A stretch of 64,000 bases of DNA from Candidatus Kryptoniota bacterium (GTDB lineage Bacteria; Bacteroidota; Ignavibacteria; Kryptoniales; JAKASW01). Shown piece after piece: positions 43,709 through 54,333 of the stretch (positions within the stretch are counted from its first letter, which is position 1; each line of letters starts with the position of its first letter). The notes beneath the pieces were generated by a model that was given only the letters and a program-made list of their open reading frames with translations, made no database searches and was not told where the DNA came from. The DNA lies in the NCBI GenBank assembly GCA_024641705.1, contig JAHECO010000001.1, positions 124,001 through 188,000 on the forward strand. Direction: 5' to 3'. The translations under genes and the position numbers were made by a program.

Positions 43709-45085
43709 TCAGTCCTGGTTGGGGAGACCGGGTTTCCCCTGCGTCATGAGCGCCGTCGCAGCGAAACGTATCTCTTCGTCGTAATCACCCTTCAGCAGCT
43801 GAAGTTCCTTCCCGAAATGCTGAGGGCCCGTTCTTGCGGCAAGGTCCAGCGCGAGGCTCTTGACCGCTGACTCGCGGTCCTCGAGAGCCGACCTTATCAG
43901 CCTGATCGCGGTCGGTGTCCCGAGACTGCCGCAGATGCTTAGAGCCGTAATCTTCATGTCGGCATCGAGGCGGGAAAAGTTACCCGCTATGAAGCCGGCT
44001 GCTTCGTCAAGTACACCCCCCACGCTCCGGGGCGAGTCGTTCTCCTGCAGCGTGTGGATAAGTGAAATCATCAGCACAGTCGTAGACGCGAACTCCCCCG
44101 TGCTCCGCGCACGTGCGAGTGCGATCCGGATGGCCTTCTCCGGGTAGTCCCGGAGAACGCCCAGGATCGACGCGTCGACGGATTCGCCCTTTCCGGCGTG
44201 CGATACGAGGGCGGTCAGGACATTGTCGTCGATGAAATTCTGGAGCCCGCGGACGGCCGCGCGCATGTAAGCCGGGTCGGGATCGTCGAGCATAGCGAGT
44301 AGACTCTGTTTCAAATAAGCCGGCATTTCTCCCCTGTAGCCGGTCGACTCCATAAGGATCACAATCGAATGGAGGATAACCGGTTTCGCAAGGTCGGAAA
44401 CCGAGGTCATCTTTGCCAGCAGGATGTTCAACAACTCCTTATCTTTGCGCGAGGACAGAGCCTCTGCGGAAGCGAGTTGGACGACGGGATCCTCGTCCGA
44501 AAGTGCCTTTACGAAGAACTGAAAACTTACTCCCTTCTCGAACTTTGCGGCCGCATTCACGACATTCGGCCTCGCGTATTCGGCCTTGTCGAACAGGCGC
44601 AGGATTTTCGGGAGATGTTGCTCGGCGTGCATCGCCCCGAGAGCATCGATTGACGCACATACGACGTTCTGGTCCGGGTCGTTCAGGTGGACGGCGATTT
44701 TCGCCACCGACGCGGGAGTAGCCGGAAGCTGGGCAATTAAGTCGACGGCGAACTTCCTTACGTCTTTGTCAGCCGAGTCGACGTAAGGGAGGAGGGCAGG
44801 GATCGCGGACTCTCCCATTCGTACTAAGGCATCACCGGCCAGATTTCTGACGGCGATGTTCCTGCTCGAAATGTGCACGGCGGCGAGTGACGCTGCCTTC
44901 TCGCTCGAGCAGAGAATGAGAACATGGGATGCAGCCTCGCGCACCCCGCGGTCCGGATCGGTCAGCAGATAAGCTGCACTTTCCAGCACCCTGTCGTCGC
45001 AGCAATTTTCATAAAGCGATTCCAGGGCCATCCTTTTTTCGGAAGGATCCGGAGTCTGAAGCCGTTCAATCGATGCTTCTATCAT
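43709..45085 (-). CDS. HEAT-repeat protein in the chemotaxis operon
   Basis: A 458-residue all-helical protein made of roughly twelve HEAT-like repeats of 30-40 residues, for example DPDRGVREAASHVLILCSS, DSADKDVRKFAVDLIAQL and DEEIRFAATALMTQ. No signal peptide, membrane segment or enzymatic motif is seen. HEAT proteins are scaffolds or regulators; its place between fapA and cheR, with 4-7 bp gaps, suggests a cytoplasmic partner of the chemotaxis array. I do not know a chemotaxis gene of this type by name. Confidence 0.65.
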   Translation of the reverse strand: MIEASIERLQTPDPSEKRMALESLYENCCDDRVLESAAYLLTDPDRGVREAASHVLILCSSEKAASLAAVHISSRNIAVRNLAGDALVRMGESAIPALLPYVDSADKDVRKFAVDLIAQLPATPASVAKIAVHLNDPDQNVVCASIDALGAMHAEQHLPKILRLFDKAEYARPNVVNAAAKFEKGVSFQFFVKALSDEDPVVQLASAEALSSRKDKELLNILLAKMTSVSDLAKPVILHSIVILMESTGYRGEMPAYLKQSLLAMLDDPDPAYMRAAVRGLQNFIDDNVLTALVSHAGKGESVDASILGVLRDYPEKAIRIALARARSTGEFASTTVLMISLIHTLQENDSPRSVGGVLDEAAGFIAGNFSRLDADMKITALSICGSLGTPTAIRLIRSALEDRESAVKSLALDLAARTGPQHFGKELQLLKGDYDEEIRFAATALMTQGKPGLPNQD

Positions 45086-45092
45086 GGCGTTT

Positions 45093-46466
45093 CTATAGGT
45101 TTTTTGATCGAATTATTTCGTTTCTTAATTCTTCAAAGGTGACATTGCCGTAGCTCTGTCTCAGCTGGATCCGTACTCCGTTTATTTCAGCTGCCACGCT
45201 TTGATGGATGGTCCCCAACACTGTAAGCTTTGGACTTCTCTTCTTACTCATTTCAACTGCGGCCTGTTGCTTCCTGGCGTTCAGTTCCTTCACGTATTCA
45301 TTTTGACTTTGCAGTCTGGCCTGCAGGATCTTCAATTGGTCTGCTTTTTCGGCGGTGAAGTTGTTGCTGTCGATGCGGTCGCGCACAAGGACGTAAATCT
45401 CATTCTTCAGTTGTTCGGTGGCTTTTGTCTGCAGCTCGACCTCTTTGTCGATCGCGCTTATGTCCTCATTAAGGAGTTCCTTCAGGCCGAGCTTGACCTT
45501 CGTTGTCGAATATAGTTCGCCGCCGAGTGTTTTGACTTCGATTTTCTCGCCTGCCGCGACAGTTCCGCCCATTATTATGGCATTGACCCCGAGTATACTG
45601 TCGGAGGCAATGAGATGGGCGTTCACGCTTTCCTTGCCGATGGTCAGGGAGCCGCGTGTTTCTATCATCTGGTTAAGGACGACATTGACCACGACGTCTC
45701 CGCCCGCTCTTATCAACCCGTCGCCGCGGCCTACGAAACTTCCTTTCACCGTTACATTCCCGCCGGCGATGATTTCCGCGTCTTCCACGGATCCCTGCAC
45801 GAATACGTCATGCTTGATTTTCAGACGGCAGCTTCCTTTGATGTCGCCCGTAACTCTGAGGGACCCGGCAAACTCCAGCTCGCCGTCAGAAAAATCTATA
45901 TCTTCATGGATGACGTGCTCCTTGATGATTTCGATGCTTGCCTTGCCTATTCTGAGGTCTCCATCCTCGGCTGCTTCGAGCCTGATTTCGTTCTCGCCCT
46001 CGGCGCGTTTTACGGTTGGCCCCGTGAACATGTTGACAGTCCGGCCCTGTTTCGGTTGTACTTTCTTGCCGAAGACATCGATCCCTACACTTCCTGCAGT
46101 CGGTTTATGGATGACGCCTACCGGGTCACCGACATAAATATTCCTTATACCGAATTTCCTTTCGGCTTCCGATTCTTCGCGGCCCGCGGCCTCCTCGAAC
46201 TGGCCGTCCTTGCCGTCGGTGTGCCTGACTCCGCTGGCGACCAGGACACGGCGCCCCGGGTCCGACACTGCTTCCAGGAACGACTTCTCGTCGATTCCGT
46301 AGACGACGCCGTTGGCCTCCAGAGCAGCCTGGACGTCGGAAAGCTGCGGATCCGGCTCGTCCACAGTCACGTATGCTTCATAGCTGTCGCCGGAGACTTC
46401 TATTCTTATCCGCTTCGAAATGAGTTCTTCCTTATCCACGTGGCCCGCCTTTTCGGTTGATGTCAT
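45093..46466 (-). CDS. FapA-family protein (DUF342)
   Basis: A 457-residue protein of the DUF342/FapA group. It has an N-terminal domain with VDEPDPQLSDVQAALEANGVVYGID (about 37-61), then the repeated polar beta-helix core IVKGSFVGRGDGLIRAGGDVVVNVVLNQMIETRGSL, and a C-terminal coiled coil (about 330-410). Members are common in flagellar, chemotaxis and polymer-related operons of deep-branching bacteria. Function is not established in this setting. The gene lies 17 bp from the nearest receptor gene. Confidence 0.75.
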   Translation of the reverse strand: MTSTEKAGHVDKEELISKRIRIEVSGDSYEAYVTVDEPDPQLSDVQAALEANGVVYGIDEKSFLEAVSDPGRRVLVASGVRHTDGKDGQFEEAAGREESEAERKFGIRNIYVGDPVGVIHKPTAGSVGIDVFGKKVQPKQGRTVNMFTGPTVKRAEGENEIRLEAAEDGDLRIGKASIEIIKEHVIHEDIDFSDGELEFAGSLRVTGDIKGSCRLKIKHDVFVQGSVEDAEIIAGGNVTVKGSFVGRGDGLIRAGGDVVVNVVLNQMIETRGSLTIGKESVNAHLIASDSILGVNAIIMGGTVAAGEKIEVKTLGGELYSTTKVKLGLKELLNEDISAIDKEVELQTKATEQLKNEIYVLVRDRIDSNNFTAEKADQLKILQARLQSQNEYVKELNARKQQAAVEMSKKRSPKLTVLGTIHQSVAAEINGVRIQLRQSYGNVTFEELRNEIIRSKNL

Positions 46467-50495: not shown

Positions 50496-50987
50496 TCACG
50501 CATTCGCCACGGCCTCCACCTCGGACAGTTTTTCCTGTTCGTCGGAAGAGAGGACCCTGTCGAGGTCGAGGAGTATCAGGAGCCTGTCCTGGAGCTTCGC
50601 GACCCCGGTTATGTAGTTCGTGCTGACACTCGTGGTTAGTTCCGGCGGAGGTTCGATGATGCTTTTCTCGACGCGGATGACTTCCTTGACTTTGTCGACC
50701 AGGAAGCCGACGACCTTGTCGACAAGGTCCACGACCACTATTCTCGTTTCGTTGTCCCGGTCTTTACGCGCGATCCCGAAACGCTTCCGCAGGTCGATGA
50801 CGGGGACTATCTTGCCGCGGAGATTGATCACGCCCTCGACGAATTCGGGCGATTTCGGAACGCGGGTTATCTCCACCGTCCGGATTATTTCCTGCACCTT
50901 GAGTATGTCTACTCCGAATTCCTCGTTCTCGATCACGAAGCTGACGAGTTGGTAGATTGCCTCGTTGGATTGGCCTGTCGCATTCAT
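50496..50987 (-). CDS. cheW: Chemotaxis coupling protein CheW
   Basis: A 163-residue SH3-like coupling protein linking receptors and CheA. Motifs: QLVSFVIENEEFGVDILKVQEI, the NLRGKIVPVIDLRKRFG block, and ILLDLDRVLSSDE near the end. Length is standard. It lies 3 bp after a receptor gene in the same operon. Confidence 0.95.
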   Translation of the reverse strand: MNATGQSNEAIYQLVSFVIENEEFGVDILKVQEIIRTVEITRVPKSPEFVEGVINLRGKIVPVIDLRKRFGIARKDRDNETRIVVVDLVDKVVGFLVDKVKEVIRVEKSIIEPPPELTTSVSTNYITGVAKLQDRLLILLDLDRVLSSDEQEKLSEVEAVANA

Positions 50988-50990
50988 GAG

Positions 50991-52889
50991 TTATCTCCTT
51001 TTCGAACCGTTCGAATGAGAATCGCGCATGGGGACTATCTTGCCGTTTTCCCTGACGCCGTATGAACTATTCGGCTGCAGCCTGGTGTCCAGCTGGAACC
51101 GTTCTATCAGTTCCCTGAGATGTTCGGTCAGGTGGTTGAGGTTTTCGGCGGTGCGCGCGAGATCGACCGTCGCGTTCGAGACATGGCCTGCGACGGAGGA
51201 GATGTTTTCGACGTTGTGAGAGATTTGTTCGCTCGCGGATGACTGTTCTTCACCGGCCGCCGCTATCTGGTTGATCATCCCGACCACGCCGTTCACCGAC
51301 GAAATAATCTCTGAAAGCGATTCCGCCGCCTTGTCGGCAAGCTTCATCCCGTTCTCTGCTTCGGTATTGCCTTCCGTCATGGCAAGTACGACCTGGGTGG
51401 TTTCCTGCTGGATGCGCTTTATCATGCCGGCGATCTCCTTGGTGGCGGACGTCGTGCGTTCGGCCAGCTTGCGTACTTCGTCGGCAACTACCGCAAATCC
51501 CCGGCCCTGTTCTCCGGCTCTCGCGGCTTCGATGGCGGCGTTCAGGGCAAGCAGGTTGGTCTGGTCGGCGATATCGTCGATCACCTGAATGATCTCCCCG
51601 ATCTGGGCGCTCGACTTGCCGAGCGTGTCTACTATCTCGGCGGATTTCTTCACCAGGCGCGCAATCTTCGTCATTCCACCGATTGTTTCCTGGAAAACCT
51701 TCTCCCCGGCATTCGCGAGTTCCGACGCCTTCTTGGCCATCTCCGCGGCCTCGTTGGCATTTCTGGAAGATTCGATGACGGTCTTCGACATCTGTTCTAC
51801 GGCGGTGGCCACTTCGCGGGTCTGGTTCGCCTGTTCCCCGGCACCCGTGGACATCTCCTCGGCCGCAGTGGATATTCGGGTCGACGCTTCCGCGAGCGAG
51901 TTGCCCGCCGTGTGAACTTCACCGATGAGCGAGTTGAGATCTCGTATCATCTGGTTAATTTTTTCCATCAGTGCTGCAACCTCGTCGTTCTTCTCGACGT
52001 TGAGTTCTTTGGTCAGGTCGCCCTTTGTAACCGCCTCCACTACATCCGATATCTTCTCGAACTGTTTCCTGAGATAAGACTGCCGGTCTTCCGATTCCTG
52101 CTGCATCTTCTCCGCGAGTCTTCTCGCTTCCTCGGCCTGTTGGGTCTTGAGGGTGACCTCATCGAGCGCCCGCTTGCTGTTCTCTATCATTATGTTGAAG
52201 GCAGCAGCCAGCTCCCCGATCTCGTCTGCCTGGTTGAGCTCGACCCTGACTTCGAAGTTGCCACCGGCGACCTTCTGGGCGGATTGCTTCAGGGAGTCGA
52301 CCGGTTTGATGATAGCCCTTCTCAGGAGGAACATCGCGAGAAGCCCGAAGAGGGAAAACAGGACGAAGGTGAAGACGGATATGATAATGCTCGTCGTTTT
52401 CTCGGTCTGAAGGGATTGTGACGGGATGGCGACCGAAACGTAGCCCAGCAGCTGGTGTGTGGCCTGGTTGTCCACCTTCATCGTTGAAATTGCGACGGGG
52501 AGTCCCGAAGCCGTGCTGGCCGAGACTACGGATCCGGCAACGGCGGCCGGGGCAGGCGCGTTCCAGTTTATGGTGTTGAAATTCAGCTGTGCGATTGTTT
52601 TTCCGTTCTGGTCGTAGAAAGCTCCCGCGACGGCGTCGCCGGTTCCGACGAGGTTTTTTAGTGCGTCCGAGAGCCCGGCGTTGTCTCCCATCAGCAACCC
52701 GTACTGTGATTGGGCGCCCATTGCCTGAGCAAGGAGGTTCGCCTTATCGTCAAGTTGCTGCTCGGACACGCTCAGGGAGTACCTGGAGTAGATGAATACC
52801 AGAGTCCAGGCAAACAGTATGAAGCCTGTCAGGAGGATGGAGAACTTGCTTCGCAGCCGCATGTTGGCAATTCGCTGACTTGTGTCCAT
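50991..52889 (-). CDS. Methyl-accepting chemotaxis protein with short periplasmic domain
   Basis: A 632-residue chemoreceptor. Membrane helix 1 is at about 14-32, a periplasmic domain of about 130 residues follows (with [24 protein letters not shown]), then membrane helix 2 (about 166-188), HAMP, a coiled-coil of about 60 residues ([18 protein letters not shown]) and the signalling domain with the intact tip [20 protein letters not shown]. It belongs to the same operon as cheW, cheA and cheR and is probably coupled to them. The ligand is unknown. Confidence 0.9.
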
Positions 52890-52898
52890 TTCAAATCC

Positions 52899-53468
52899 TT
52901 AGTTGGTTGCCAGAACTTGTGTGATGGATGCATCGTTCTCGGGGACTTTCAACCCGAGGGCGTTCAGAGTCTTTTGGTTCACGAACAGTTTTGTGGTCCC
53001 GCCGTCCGTGACGACGGCTGCACAAGCGCCTGTCGACACCCAATCCTGGTCGGGGGCAAAAAGCGGGATACCGTGGAGGACAGCGTTCTTTATCAGGAAG
53101 CCTCTGGCAGTTGAATTGCTCACCACGTCAGAGTTGCGTGCGATCCACAGTGCCTCGACATGGTACGACTCGACGAGATCCCTGAACTGTGCCGCAACGT
53201 CCGGAAGAGCCTCCACATCAGCAATGACTATTTTCACGCCGAGCGACGCCGAAGCCCGTTTGATTTGCTCTATCATCGTTGAACTCGCGTCGTCTGACTG
53301 CTTCCACATCAGCCCGATCGTCTTCGCGTGTGGAACGAGTTGCTTGATCATATAAACGGATTGAAGAGGGGTGGCGGCAGGTTCCAATGCTTCGGGGGTG
53401 CCGAAGAGTGCCGCGACCGTAACGATCACAACTGCCGATTGAATCGTCAATCTCTTAAACAAGTACAT
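52899..53468 (-). CDS. Periplasmic ABC-binding-like protein, half size
   Basis: A 189-residue exported protein (signal peptide about 1-28). The body follows the second half of the ABC_sub_bind (DUF534/TrpX-like) fold: KTIGLMWKQSDDASSTMIEQIKRASASLGVKIVIADV, then EALWIARNSDVV, GIPLFAPDQDWVSTGACAAV and GLKVPENDAS. Full-length relatives have about 320 residues, so the first lobe is missing or very reduced. It may hold a small ligand with one lobe and feed a receptor. It overlaps the pseudo-receiver gene by 14 bp and ends 9 bp before a receptor gene. Confidence 0.65.
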   Translation of the reverse strand: MYLFKRLTIQSAVVIVTVAALFGTPEALEPAATPLQSVYMIKQLVPHAKTIGLMWKQSDDASSTMIEQIKRASASLGVKIVIADVEALPDVAAQFRDLVESYHVEALWIARNSDVVSNSTARGFLIKNAVLHGIPLFAPDQDWVSTGACAAVVTDGGTTKLFVNQKTLNALGLKVPENDASITQVLATN

Positions 53469-53835
53469 CTTCCATAACCTCTGTTTTCTGATTGTGACCT
53501 TTCACCATGCCTTTGAGTGCGCCGAAGGTGAACGGCGCATCCATGACTGCGAACTCGTCCGTTTCAAGGAGAAGTTCTAGGACCAACCGCCTGAGCCGCG
53601 TTACCGCGATTATCCTCGTCGCGAATTTTCTTGTCTTCAGGGCTTTCCCGAGGACCAAGTATGTCGCGGGATTGTTCGTGGCCAGGATCACCGAGTCGAT
53701 CTTTATCATAGTTGTTATTTCCGCAGCCTCGAGCTGGTCGCTCGCGGTTAAGACGGCATAGCCGTCCTGCGACAGGTAGCTGGCCCACGCGCTCGTGAGC
53801 TCAACGTCGTTTCCGTGTATCAGTATTGTTTCCAT
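53455..53835 (-). CDS. Degenerate receiver-like protein heading the chemotaxis operon
   Basis: A 126-residue protein with the CheY-like strand/helix rhythm but without the phosphotransfer residues. The acid pair is replaced by His7-Gly8, the phospho-acceptor position by Ala52 (DSVILATNNP) and the conserved Lys is lost (AVMDAPFT), while the switch Thr seems kept (IIAVTRLRR). It is therefore a pseudo-receiver that would signal by binding rather than phosphorylation. It is the first gene of the operon, 11 bp or so from the predicted sigma-54 start site. Confidence 0.7.
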   Translation of the reverse strand: METILIHGNDVELTSAWASYLSQDGYAVLTASDQLEAAEITTMIKIDSVILATNNPATYLVLGKALKTRKFATRIIAVTRLRRLVLELLLETDEFAVMDAPFTFGALKGMVKGHNQKTEVMEDVLV

Positions 53836-54195: not shown

Positions 54196-54333
54196 ATGAA
54201 GAAGTACATGTTGTTGCTTGCATTGATTGCCGCGACTTCAGTCATCGCGATGCTGATCAATCAGACCGGGGTTTCCGATGATAAGAGTGAAGATATCTCC
54301 GACGATCCGATGTTGAACTATCTGGGAGTGTGA
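54196..54333 (+). CDS. Small membrane protein of 45 residues preceding flgB
   Basis: A 46-codon frame including stop. ATG 54196 follows a strong ribosome site AAGGAG. The translation begins MKKYMLLLALIAATSVIAML, a single hydrophobic segment with a basic start, and continues with an acidic tail (DDKSEDISDDPM). The stop TGA at 54331-54333 lies 2 bp before the flgB ATG, so they are in one operon. No family is recognised; it could be a signal-peptide-like secreted peptide or an inner-membrane anchor. It is too short to be picked up by length alone but has all the signals of a gene. Confidence 0.65.
   Translation: MKKYMLLLALIAATSVIAMLINQTGVSDDKSEDISDDPMLNYLGV

Follow-up and report, generated by a model that had tools for sequence, protein, structure and literature searches.

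Two small overlapping genes at the head of a chemotaxis operon raise the question of which of their products takes part in sensing, and with which receptor. One encodes a receiver-like protein and the other a protein with a single lobe of an ABC_sub_bind fold. The initial annotation had proposed that the two genes, together with three receptors, form a new sensory input unit. Within the window, namely the whole 64-kb stretch of DNA that was analysed, the operon runs in the order pseudo-receiver, half-SBP, MCP_A, CheW, two PAS-containing methyl-accepting chemotaxis proteins (MCPs), FapA, a HEAT-repeat protein and CheR (Table 1), and ends after CheR with two CheY, a CheZ-like protein, CheA and CheB, of which the CheY, CheA and CheB genes were named by reading the sequences and not by a family scan. 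The divergent genes from position 54330 on were read as flagellar (flgB, flgC and further); no permease or ATPase gene adjoins the half-SBP gene in the window, where the chemotaxis genes lie downstream and the flagellar-type genes are divergent. The annotated overlap of the first two genes was found as described, and an overlap of the same length is present in four relatives (L045, L046, L047 and L048), with one of 20 bp in another (L052). The HEAT-repeat and FapA genes inside the operon were both called in 11 of 12 loci of the genus (the remaining locus ends at a contig edge), in five of seven loci of the sister family and in one further locus (L061).

Table 1. Position in the window of the genes discussed in the text.
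Feature	Position	Strand	Description
Pseudo-receiver gene (protein P0002)	53455-53835	minus	126 aa; putative CheY-like fold; usual phosphorylation residues absent
Half-SBP gene (protein P0001)	52899-53468	minus	189 aa; ABC_sub_bind protein with one lobe, from the RmSBP family of single-domain SBPs
Overlap of pseudo-receiver and half-SBP genes	53455-53468	minus	14 bp
MCP_A gene, methyl-accepting chemotaxis protein	50991-52889	minus	directly 3′ of half-SBP gene; putative half-SBP partner
CheW gene	50496-50987	minus	next operon gene after MCP_A
FapA (DUF342) gene	45093-46466	minus	inside chemotaxis operon
HEAT-repeat gene	43709-45085	minus	inside chemotaxis operon

P0001 is the only protein of the genome to match ABC_sub_bind (PF04392) at E 0.001, and its alignment (E 1.6e-16) covers profile positions 119–233 of 293 only, corresponding to one lobe. 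The AlphaFold model, which was built with 26 homologs (pLDDT 84), contains a single alpha/beta lobe after a hydrophobic N-terminal helix (residues 3–21), and this lobe equals the C-terminal lobe of 3lft and 3lkv, in agreement with the annotation of the protein as the second lobe of the fold and nothing more. The tail is like the one at the C-terminus of full-length ABC_sub_bind members, as can be seen in the second segment of the 3lft alignment. The N-terminal helix, by our own reading and not by a signal-peptide program, is probably a signal peptide, and the half-SBP is probably secreted. The top structural matches of the model were entries for RmSBP of Rhodothermus marinus (Z 22–26, rmsd 1.2–1.7), followed by 3lkv, 3lft, 6hni and 6hnj (Z 19–20), and then by many PBP-I proteins near Z 10, YfiR among them. 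RmSBP (PDB 5z6v, 6k1w, 6k1x, 6k1y, 8wgk, 8wgl and 8wxm) and the half-SBP are 38% identical (model Z 25 over 155 residues), and P0001 alone matches RmSBP over the whole single domain (phmmer 2.9e-36, residues 14–188). By sequence, by its one lobe and by its MCP neighbour, the half-SBP is a member of the RmSBP single-domain SBP family, and it has neither the two-lobe ligand cleft nor the transporter-gene neighbourhood of an ABC importer SBP. In the available part of the report on RmSBP, genes for single-domain SBPs are said to lie often near an MCP gene, the function and substrate of the proteins being unknown (Nam, PMC10805632); since both the family and its MCP neighbourhood are stated there, both were already known.

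A match to P0001 was found in 32 of 197 related genomes, including all 13 from the genus and all seven from the sister family. When 395 genomes sampled from the phylum were searched with the family alignment, 33 gave a match; these comprise 20 with half-size proteins (E ≤4e-35) and, clearly apart, 13 with weaker matches only (E 2e-10 or worse, in open frames of at least 318 aa), among which the neighbourhoods were examined for G089 and G416. The fetched loci contain 39 half-SBP genes: one in the window, 12 in the genus, seven in the sister family, seven in the rest of the class and 12 in the rest of the phylum. Five class matches in frames of at least 325 aa (G059, G089, G122, G156 and G172) were left out as not half-size, and the half-SBP of G098 is a 198-aa ORF inside a 365-aa stop-to-stop frame. 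A same-strand MCP gene directly follows the half-SBP gene in 38 of the 39 loci (genus, 13/13; sister family, 7/7; other class members, 6/7; further phylum, 12/12); the MCP ORF is complete and begins within 300 bases in 37 of them, and in L041 it starts 10 bases after the half-SBP gene and runs off the contig. One half-SBP gene is an orphan with no adjoining MCP gene (L063:9413-9973), in a genome (G104) that has 13 MCP-domain matches. All 20 half-SBP genomes of the phylum sample fall within the 119 genomes with an MCP-domain match (hypergeometric 1e-11, a value uncorrected for the relatedness of the genomes).

These counts bear on two ways in which the half size could have arisen without a role. 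The recent frameshift of a full-length SBP, which the initial annotation had named as an outcome that would overturn its proposal, was ruled out, the half size being common to the 39 loci and purifying selection acting on the gene in two closely related genomes (G002-G007; dN/dS 0.078). Chance retention of what is left of a degenerate transporter SBP would account for the absent lobe and for the lack of a transporter gene beside the half-SBP in the window, but it is hardly credible in view of the presence of the half-SBP in 20 of 20 genomes from two families, of the purifying selection and of the conserved synteny with the MCP gene.

MCP_A consists of a transmembrane segment (TM), a single PAS/Cache ectodomain (approximately residues 40–160), a second TM, a HAMP domain and a signalling domain, and its dN/dS in G002-G007 is 0.055. 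In the model of residues 1–260 (pLDDT 84), two long helices surround the single PAS/Cache domain, which matches a WalK model (Z 15), CitA (Z 12–14), DctB and others, including LuxQ. Direct family scans with the N-terminus of the window protein gave weak matches only, to CHASE8 (0.038), sCache_4 (0.042), YfiN (0.0015) and the YfiR-associated kinase (0.0012). A profile made from the ectodomain only scored 51–172 bits on 37 paired MCPs, and 51–149 bits on the 13 paired MCPs held out of it, versus at most 5.3 bits on the 26 unpaired MCPs, which come from the window and the fetched loci; many of these are orthologs of each other, and two received no score. MCPs paired with a half-SBP have a common ectodomain that is not seen in these 26 unpaired MCPs, and these scores do not support membership of the two other receptors of the operon, which the initial annotation had included in the unit.

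The LuxQ match is one of the points in favour of an alternative in which the half-SBP is a true ligand binder, a single lobe (or a dimer) capturing a small molecule and presenting it to the MCP, as in SBP-dependent chemotaxis or LuxP/LuxQ. The ectodomain is of the Cache/PAS type, and the half-SBP family corresponds to the C-terminal lobe of SBPs that bind amino acids (Trp in 3lft; 6hnj and 6hni are ligand-bound). A one-lobe protein, however, has no closed cleft, and the soaking of RmSBP crystals with amino acids and with metal ions is reported, in the available part of the source, to have revealed no biologically meaningful substrate (PMC10805632). Ligand capture is accordingly regarded as a rather unlikely role for the half-SBP.

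A different precedent is offered by YfiR and YfiN. YfiR has been likened to one lobe, the N-terminal one, of 3LFT/3LKV, and it binds the PAS domain of YfiN (PMC4655355), for which CitA was used as a template (PMC3375315); many YfiNR pairs have no YfiB (PMC3375315), and some Yfi homologs carry MCP domains instead of GGDEF (Malone et al., 2012; PMC3375315), all as described in the available parts of these papers. In the same phylum as the window, 12 of 19 loci examined, from 30 fetched, have a DUF4154 (YfiR-like) gene directly 5′ of a gene whose product was read as a TM-ectodomain-TM-HAMP protein (L069, L072-L076, L081-L085 and L087), a pairing that parallels that of half-SBP and MCP. The proteins encoded directly 3′ of these DUF4154 genes, here called DUF4154 partners, are a selected set, as the loci with no adjacent gene of this kind (L077-L080 and L086) and those in which the ORF was picked on the wrong strand (L070 and L071) were left out.

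Compared with the ectodomains of the 12 DUF4154 partners, the MCP ectodomain alone gave an hhalign E-value of 3e-9 and a score of 54, versus 16 for the best of 100 column shuffles, and inclusion of HAMP gave 9e-26. The ectodomain profile scored a median near 6 and a best value of 17 on single DUF4154 partners, versus less than 0 for unpaired MCPs (Mann-Whitney 1e-5). The MCP_A segment GLLM (residues 64–67) aligns with the place of the YfiN motif AAVVF, its match to YfiN residues being a putative one drawn through the DUF4154 partners, and positions 65–67 of MCP_A are hydrophobic in 25 of 25 alignment rows.

The other partner shows a fainter likeness. The half-SBP family aligned with DUF4154 profiles with a score of 34, an E-value of 1e-4 and an hhalign probability of 53%, the best of 100 shuffles scoring 19, and in a control comparison the half-SBP and canonical receivers aligned over 12 columns with an E-value of 0.15. 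The two invariant DUF4154 columns (G146 and N163) correspond to half-SBP residues G147 and N164, which are invariant and nearly invariant, respectively, among half-SBPs. YfiR superposes on the half-SBP model with Z 9.9 over 129 of 147 residues (4zhu_B) and Z 9.5 over 128 of 148 residues (4yn7_B), VIA-align Z values no better than those of many PBP-I proteins, and in Foldseek it ranks 42nd (E 0.001, 7% identity). When a DUF4154 profile was run on 769 small ORFs, seven half-SBPs ranked directly after the eight true DUF4154 proteins, with only 8–11 bits, and the remaining half-SBPs were scattered down to rank 158. P0001 has no match up to E 1 to the DUF4154 family itself (PF13689), which also has none in the genome at E 0.001; membership of the half-SBP in DUF4154 was rejected, as the curated cut-off of PF13689 is not reached. 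Because both partners resemble their counterparts while PF13689 gives no match, the half-SBP and its MCP are read as working like YfiR/YfiN and are not filed as DUF4154.

The evidence on the pair formed by an RmSBP-type protein and an MCP favours a YfiR-like co-receptor mechanism. In the main reading, to which we assign a probability of roughly 0.6, the half-SBP and MCP_A would form a two-gene co-receptor unit of the YfiR/YfiN type with a chemotaxis output, to which the pseudo-receiver would be a cytoplasmic accessory. The half-SBP would be exported to the periplasm and would bind the single PAS/Cache ectodomain of MCP_A, much as YfiR binds the periplasmic PAS domain of YfiN; its association or release would shift HAMP and hence alter CheA activity. 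It would thus serve as a co-receptor and not as a transport component. Since Yfi cores with MCP outputs are mentioned by Malone et al. (2012) in the part available to us, the unit is regarded as a variant of the Yfi type and not as a new kind. The novelty claimed for it in the initial annotation holds only in part, as MCP genes near the half protein are also in print (PMC10805632, available in part); a link between RmSBP and YfiR was not found in the open-access literature searched.

The place of the pseudo-receiver in this unit is a separate matter. P0002 matches Response_reg (PF00072) weakly, with 16.5 bits against a Pfam cut-off of 30.2. The acid pair, phospho-acceptor Asp and Lys, which the initial annotation had noticed to be lacking, are replaced by G-N, Thr and Ala, respectively, in both alignments with canonical receivers; the profile alignment retains the Thr/Ser site, which is one column off in the other. 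Among the six intact pseudo-receivers, Glu occupies the first acid position in four, Asp the second in one and the Lys is kept in one, and the phospho-acceptor Asp is absent from all six. Sister-family genomes carry a canonical receiver in this slot. It is complete in five of seven loci (Response_reg matches 5/5, best 4e-23); the G018 copy lacks its N-terminal portion, and the G019 copy is truncated by the end of the contig. The profile alignment of pseudo-receivers with canonical receivers is colinear and weak (E 0.003, probability 10%), and the orthology of the pseudo-receiver and the sister-family receiver rests on position together with this similarity. No receiver-type gene was recognised before the half-SBP gene in the fetched loci outside the two families. 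In one of the outlying families (f36; L131 and L132), the half-SBP and MCP genes likewise adjoin divergent genes that match flgB (25%), and no receiver gene was called in the interval, which suggests that the divergent arrangement is older than the receiver.

The overlap of the two genes, and the doubly wound alpha/beta fold expected of both products, would also fit a split gene in which the pseudo-receiver is the absent first lobe of the same SBP. This candidate was rejected, and is very improbable, on the matches of Response_reg to five of six members of the pseudo-receiver family (best 1.2e-4), of which ABC_sub_bind matches none at E up to 1, and on the presence of a canonical receiver at this place in the sister family; the missing signal peptide in P0002, as judged by eye, and the restriction of such a gene to the two families also speak against it.

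The distribution of the pseudo-receiver gene is patchy. Among the 13 genomes of the genus, it is intact in six (the window genome, G001, G002, G004, G007 and G008), broken in one and was not found in six (G003, G005, G006, G010, G011 and G012), in which searches for remnants with tblastn, nhmmer and blastn gave no convincing match (best nhmmer E 0.045, in L051), so that extreme divergence may also explain the absence. In the broken copy (G009; L041:3438-3710), an internal stretch is lost and the frame is changed; G009 and the window genome cluster together in the tree. On the tree of MCP_A and half-SBP, the genomes without the gene need three changes, and well-supported branches force two. These absences, the broken copy and the loss of the switch residues are what would be expected of a decaying gene without function. 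In G002-G007, the only one of 15 computed pairs with dS below 1, the dN/dS of the pseudo-receiver is 0.075 (95% bootstrap 0.034–0.136), equal to that of the half-SBP, and the 14-bp overlap is kept in four relatives, both of which count against decay; in the other 14 pairs the dS of the pseudo-receiver is undefined or at least 1.4, and the ratio is 0.12–0.30 where computable. The gene is constrained in the G002-G007 lineage on this dN/dS and is dispensable in others, and decay as a general account is doubtful.

The pseudo-receiver is a lineage-specific accessory, an optional extra and not an equal partner of the half-SBP. It may be a cytoplasmic accessory that acts independently of phosphorylation; it would derive from a canonical receiver of the sister-family kind and would have been lost more than once in the genus. 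In the genome survey, the pair of pseudo-receiver and half-SBP proved not to be conserved, and that of half-SBP and MCP is conserved across the phylum; of the proposed sensory input unit, the link between the half-SBP and the adjacent receptor stands, and equal membership of the pseudo-receiver does not.

A wider scheme can be put forward tentatively, as a conjecture that is somewhat more likely to fail than to hold: RmSBP-type half-SBPs and YfiR may belong to a single family of half-lobe co-receptors with two branches, derived from the second lobe of ABC_sub_bind plus its C-terminal tail, that plug into CitA-like PAS ectodomains, one branch with diguanylate cyclases and kinases and the other with chemoreceptors; in the genus of the window, a receiver would also have been recruited and would then have evolved into an array adaptor that is independent of phosphorylation. 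For the single-domain SBP family, of which several crystal structures but no function have been available, the near-strict pairing with one receptor type gives a concrete candidate partner. The likenesses of the partners to YfiR/YfiN offer a candidate mechanism which, if true, would add a set of Bacteroidota chemoreceptors to the systems governed by a Yfi-type periplasmic switch.

Set against known systems, the half-SBP shares its family and its MCP gene neighbourhood with RmSBP; in contrast to the report on that protein, the pairing is counted here, involves one ectodomain type and is accompanied by a receiver-like gene in front. With the full-length ABC_sub_bind SBPs 3lft, 3lkv and 6hni it has the second lobe and the C-terminal tail in common, but it lacks the first lobe, and no transporter genes were seen beside it. 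The pseudo-receiver is like CheY-type receivers in its weak colinear similarity to PF00072 and in the slot that it shares with the canonical receiver of the sister family, and P0002 is unlike them in having no acid pair, phospho-acceptor Asp or Lys. With YfiR/YfiN of the YfiBNR system (DUF4154 with CitA-like PAS, HAMP and GGDEF), the unit has in common a gene for a half-lobe protein beside one for a TM-PAS-TM-HAMP receptor, a similarity of both partners that is weak but above that of shuffles, and the YfiR fold in the half-SBP model, for which many PBP-I proteins score alike. It differs in that P0001 lies outside PF13689 and corresponds to the C-terminal lobe of the 3lft/3lkv type, whereas YfiR is likened to the N-terminal lobe (PMC4655355, available in part), and in that the output is an MCP signalling domain inside a che operon.
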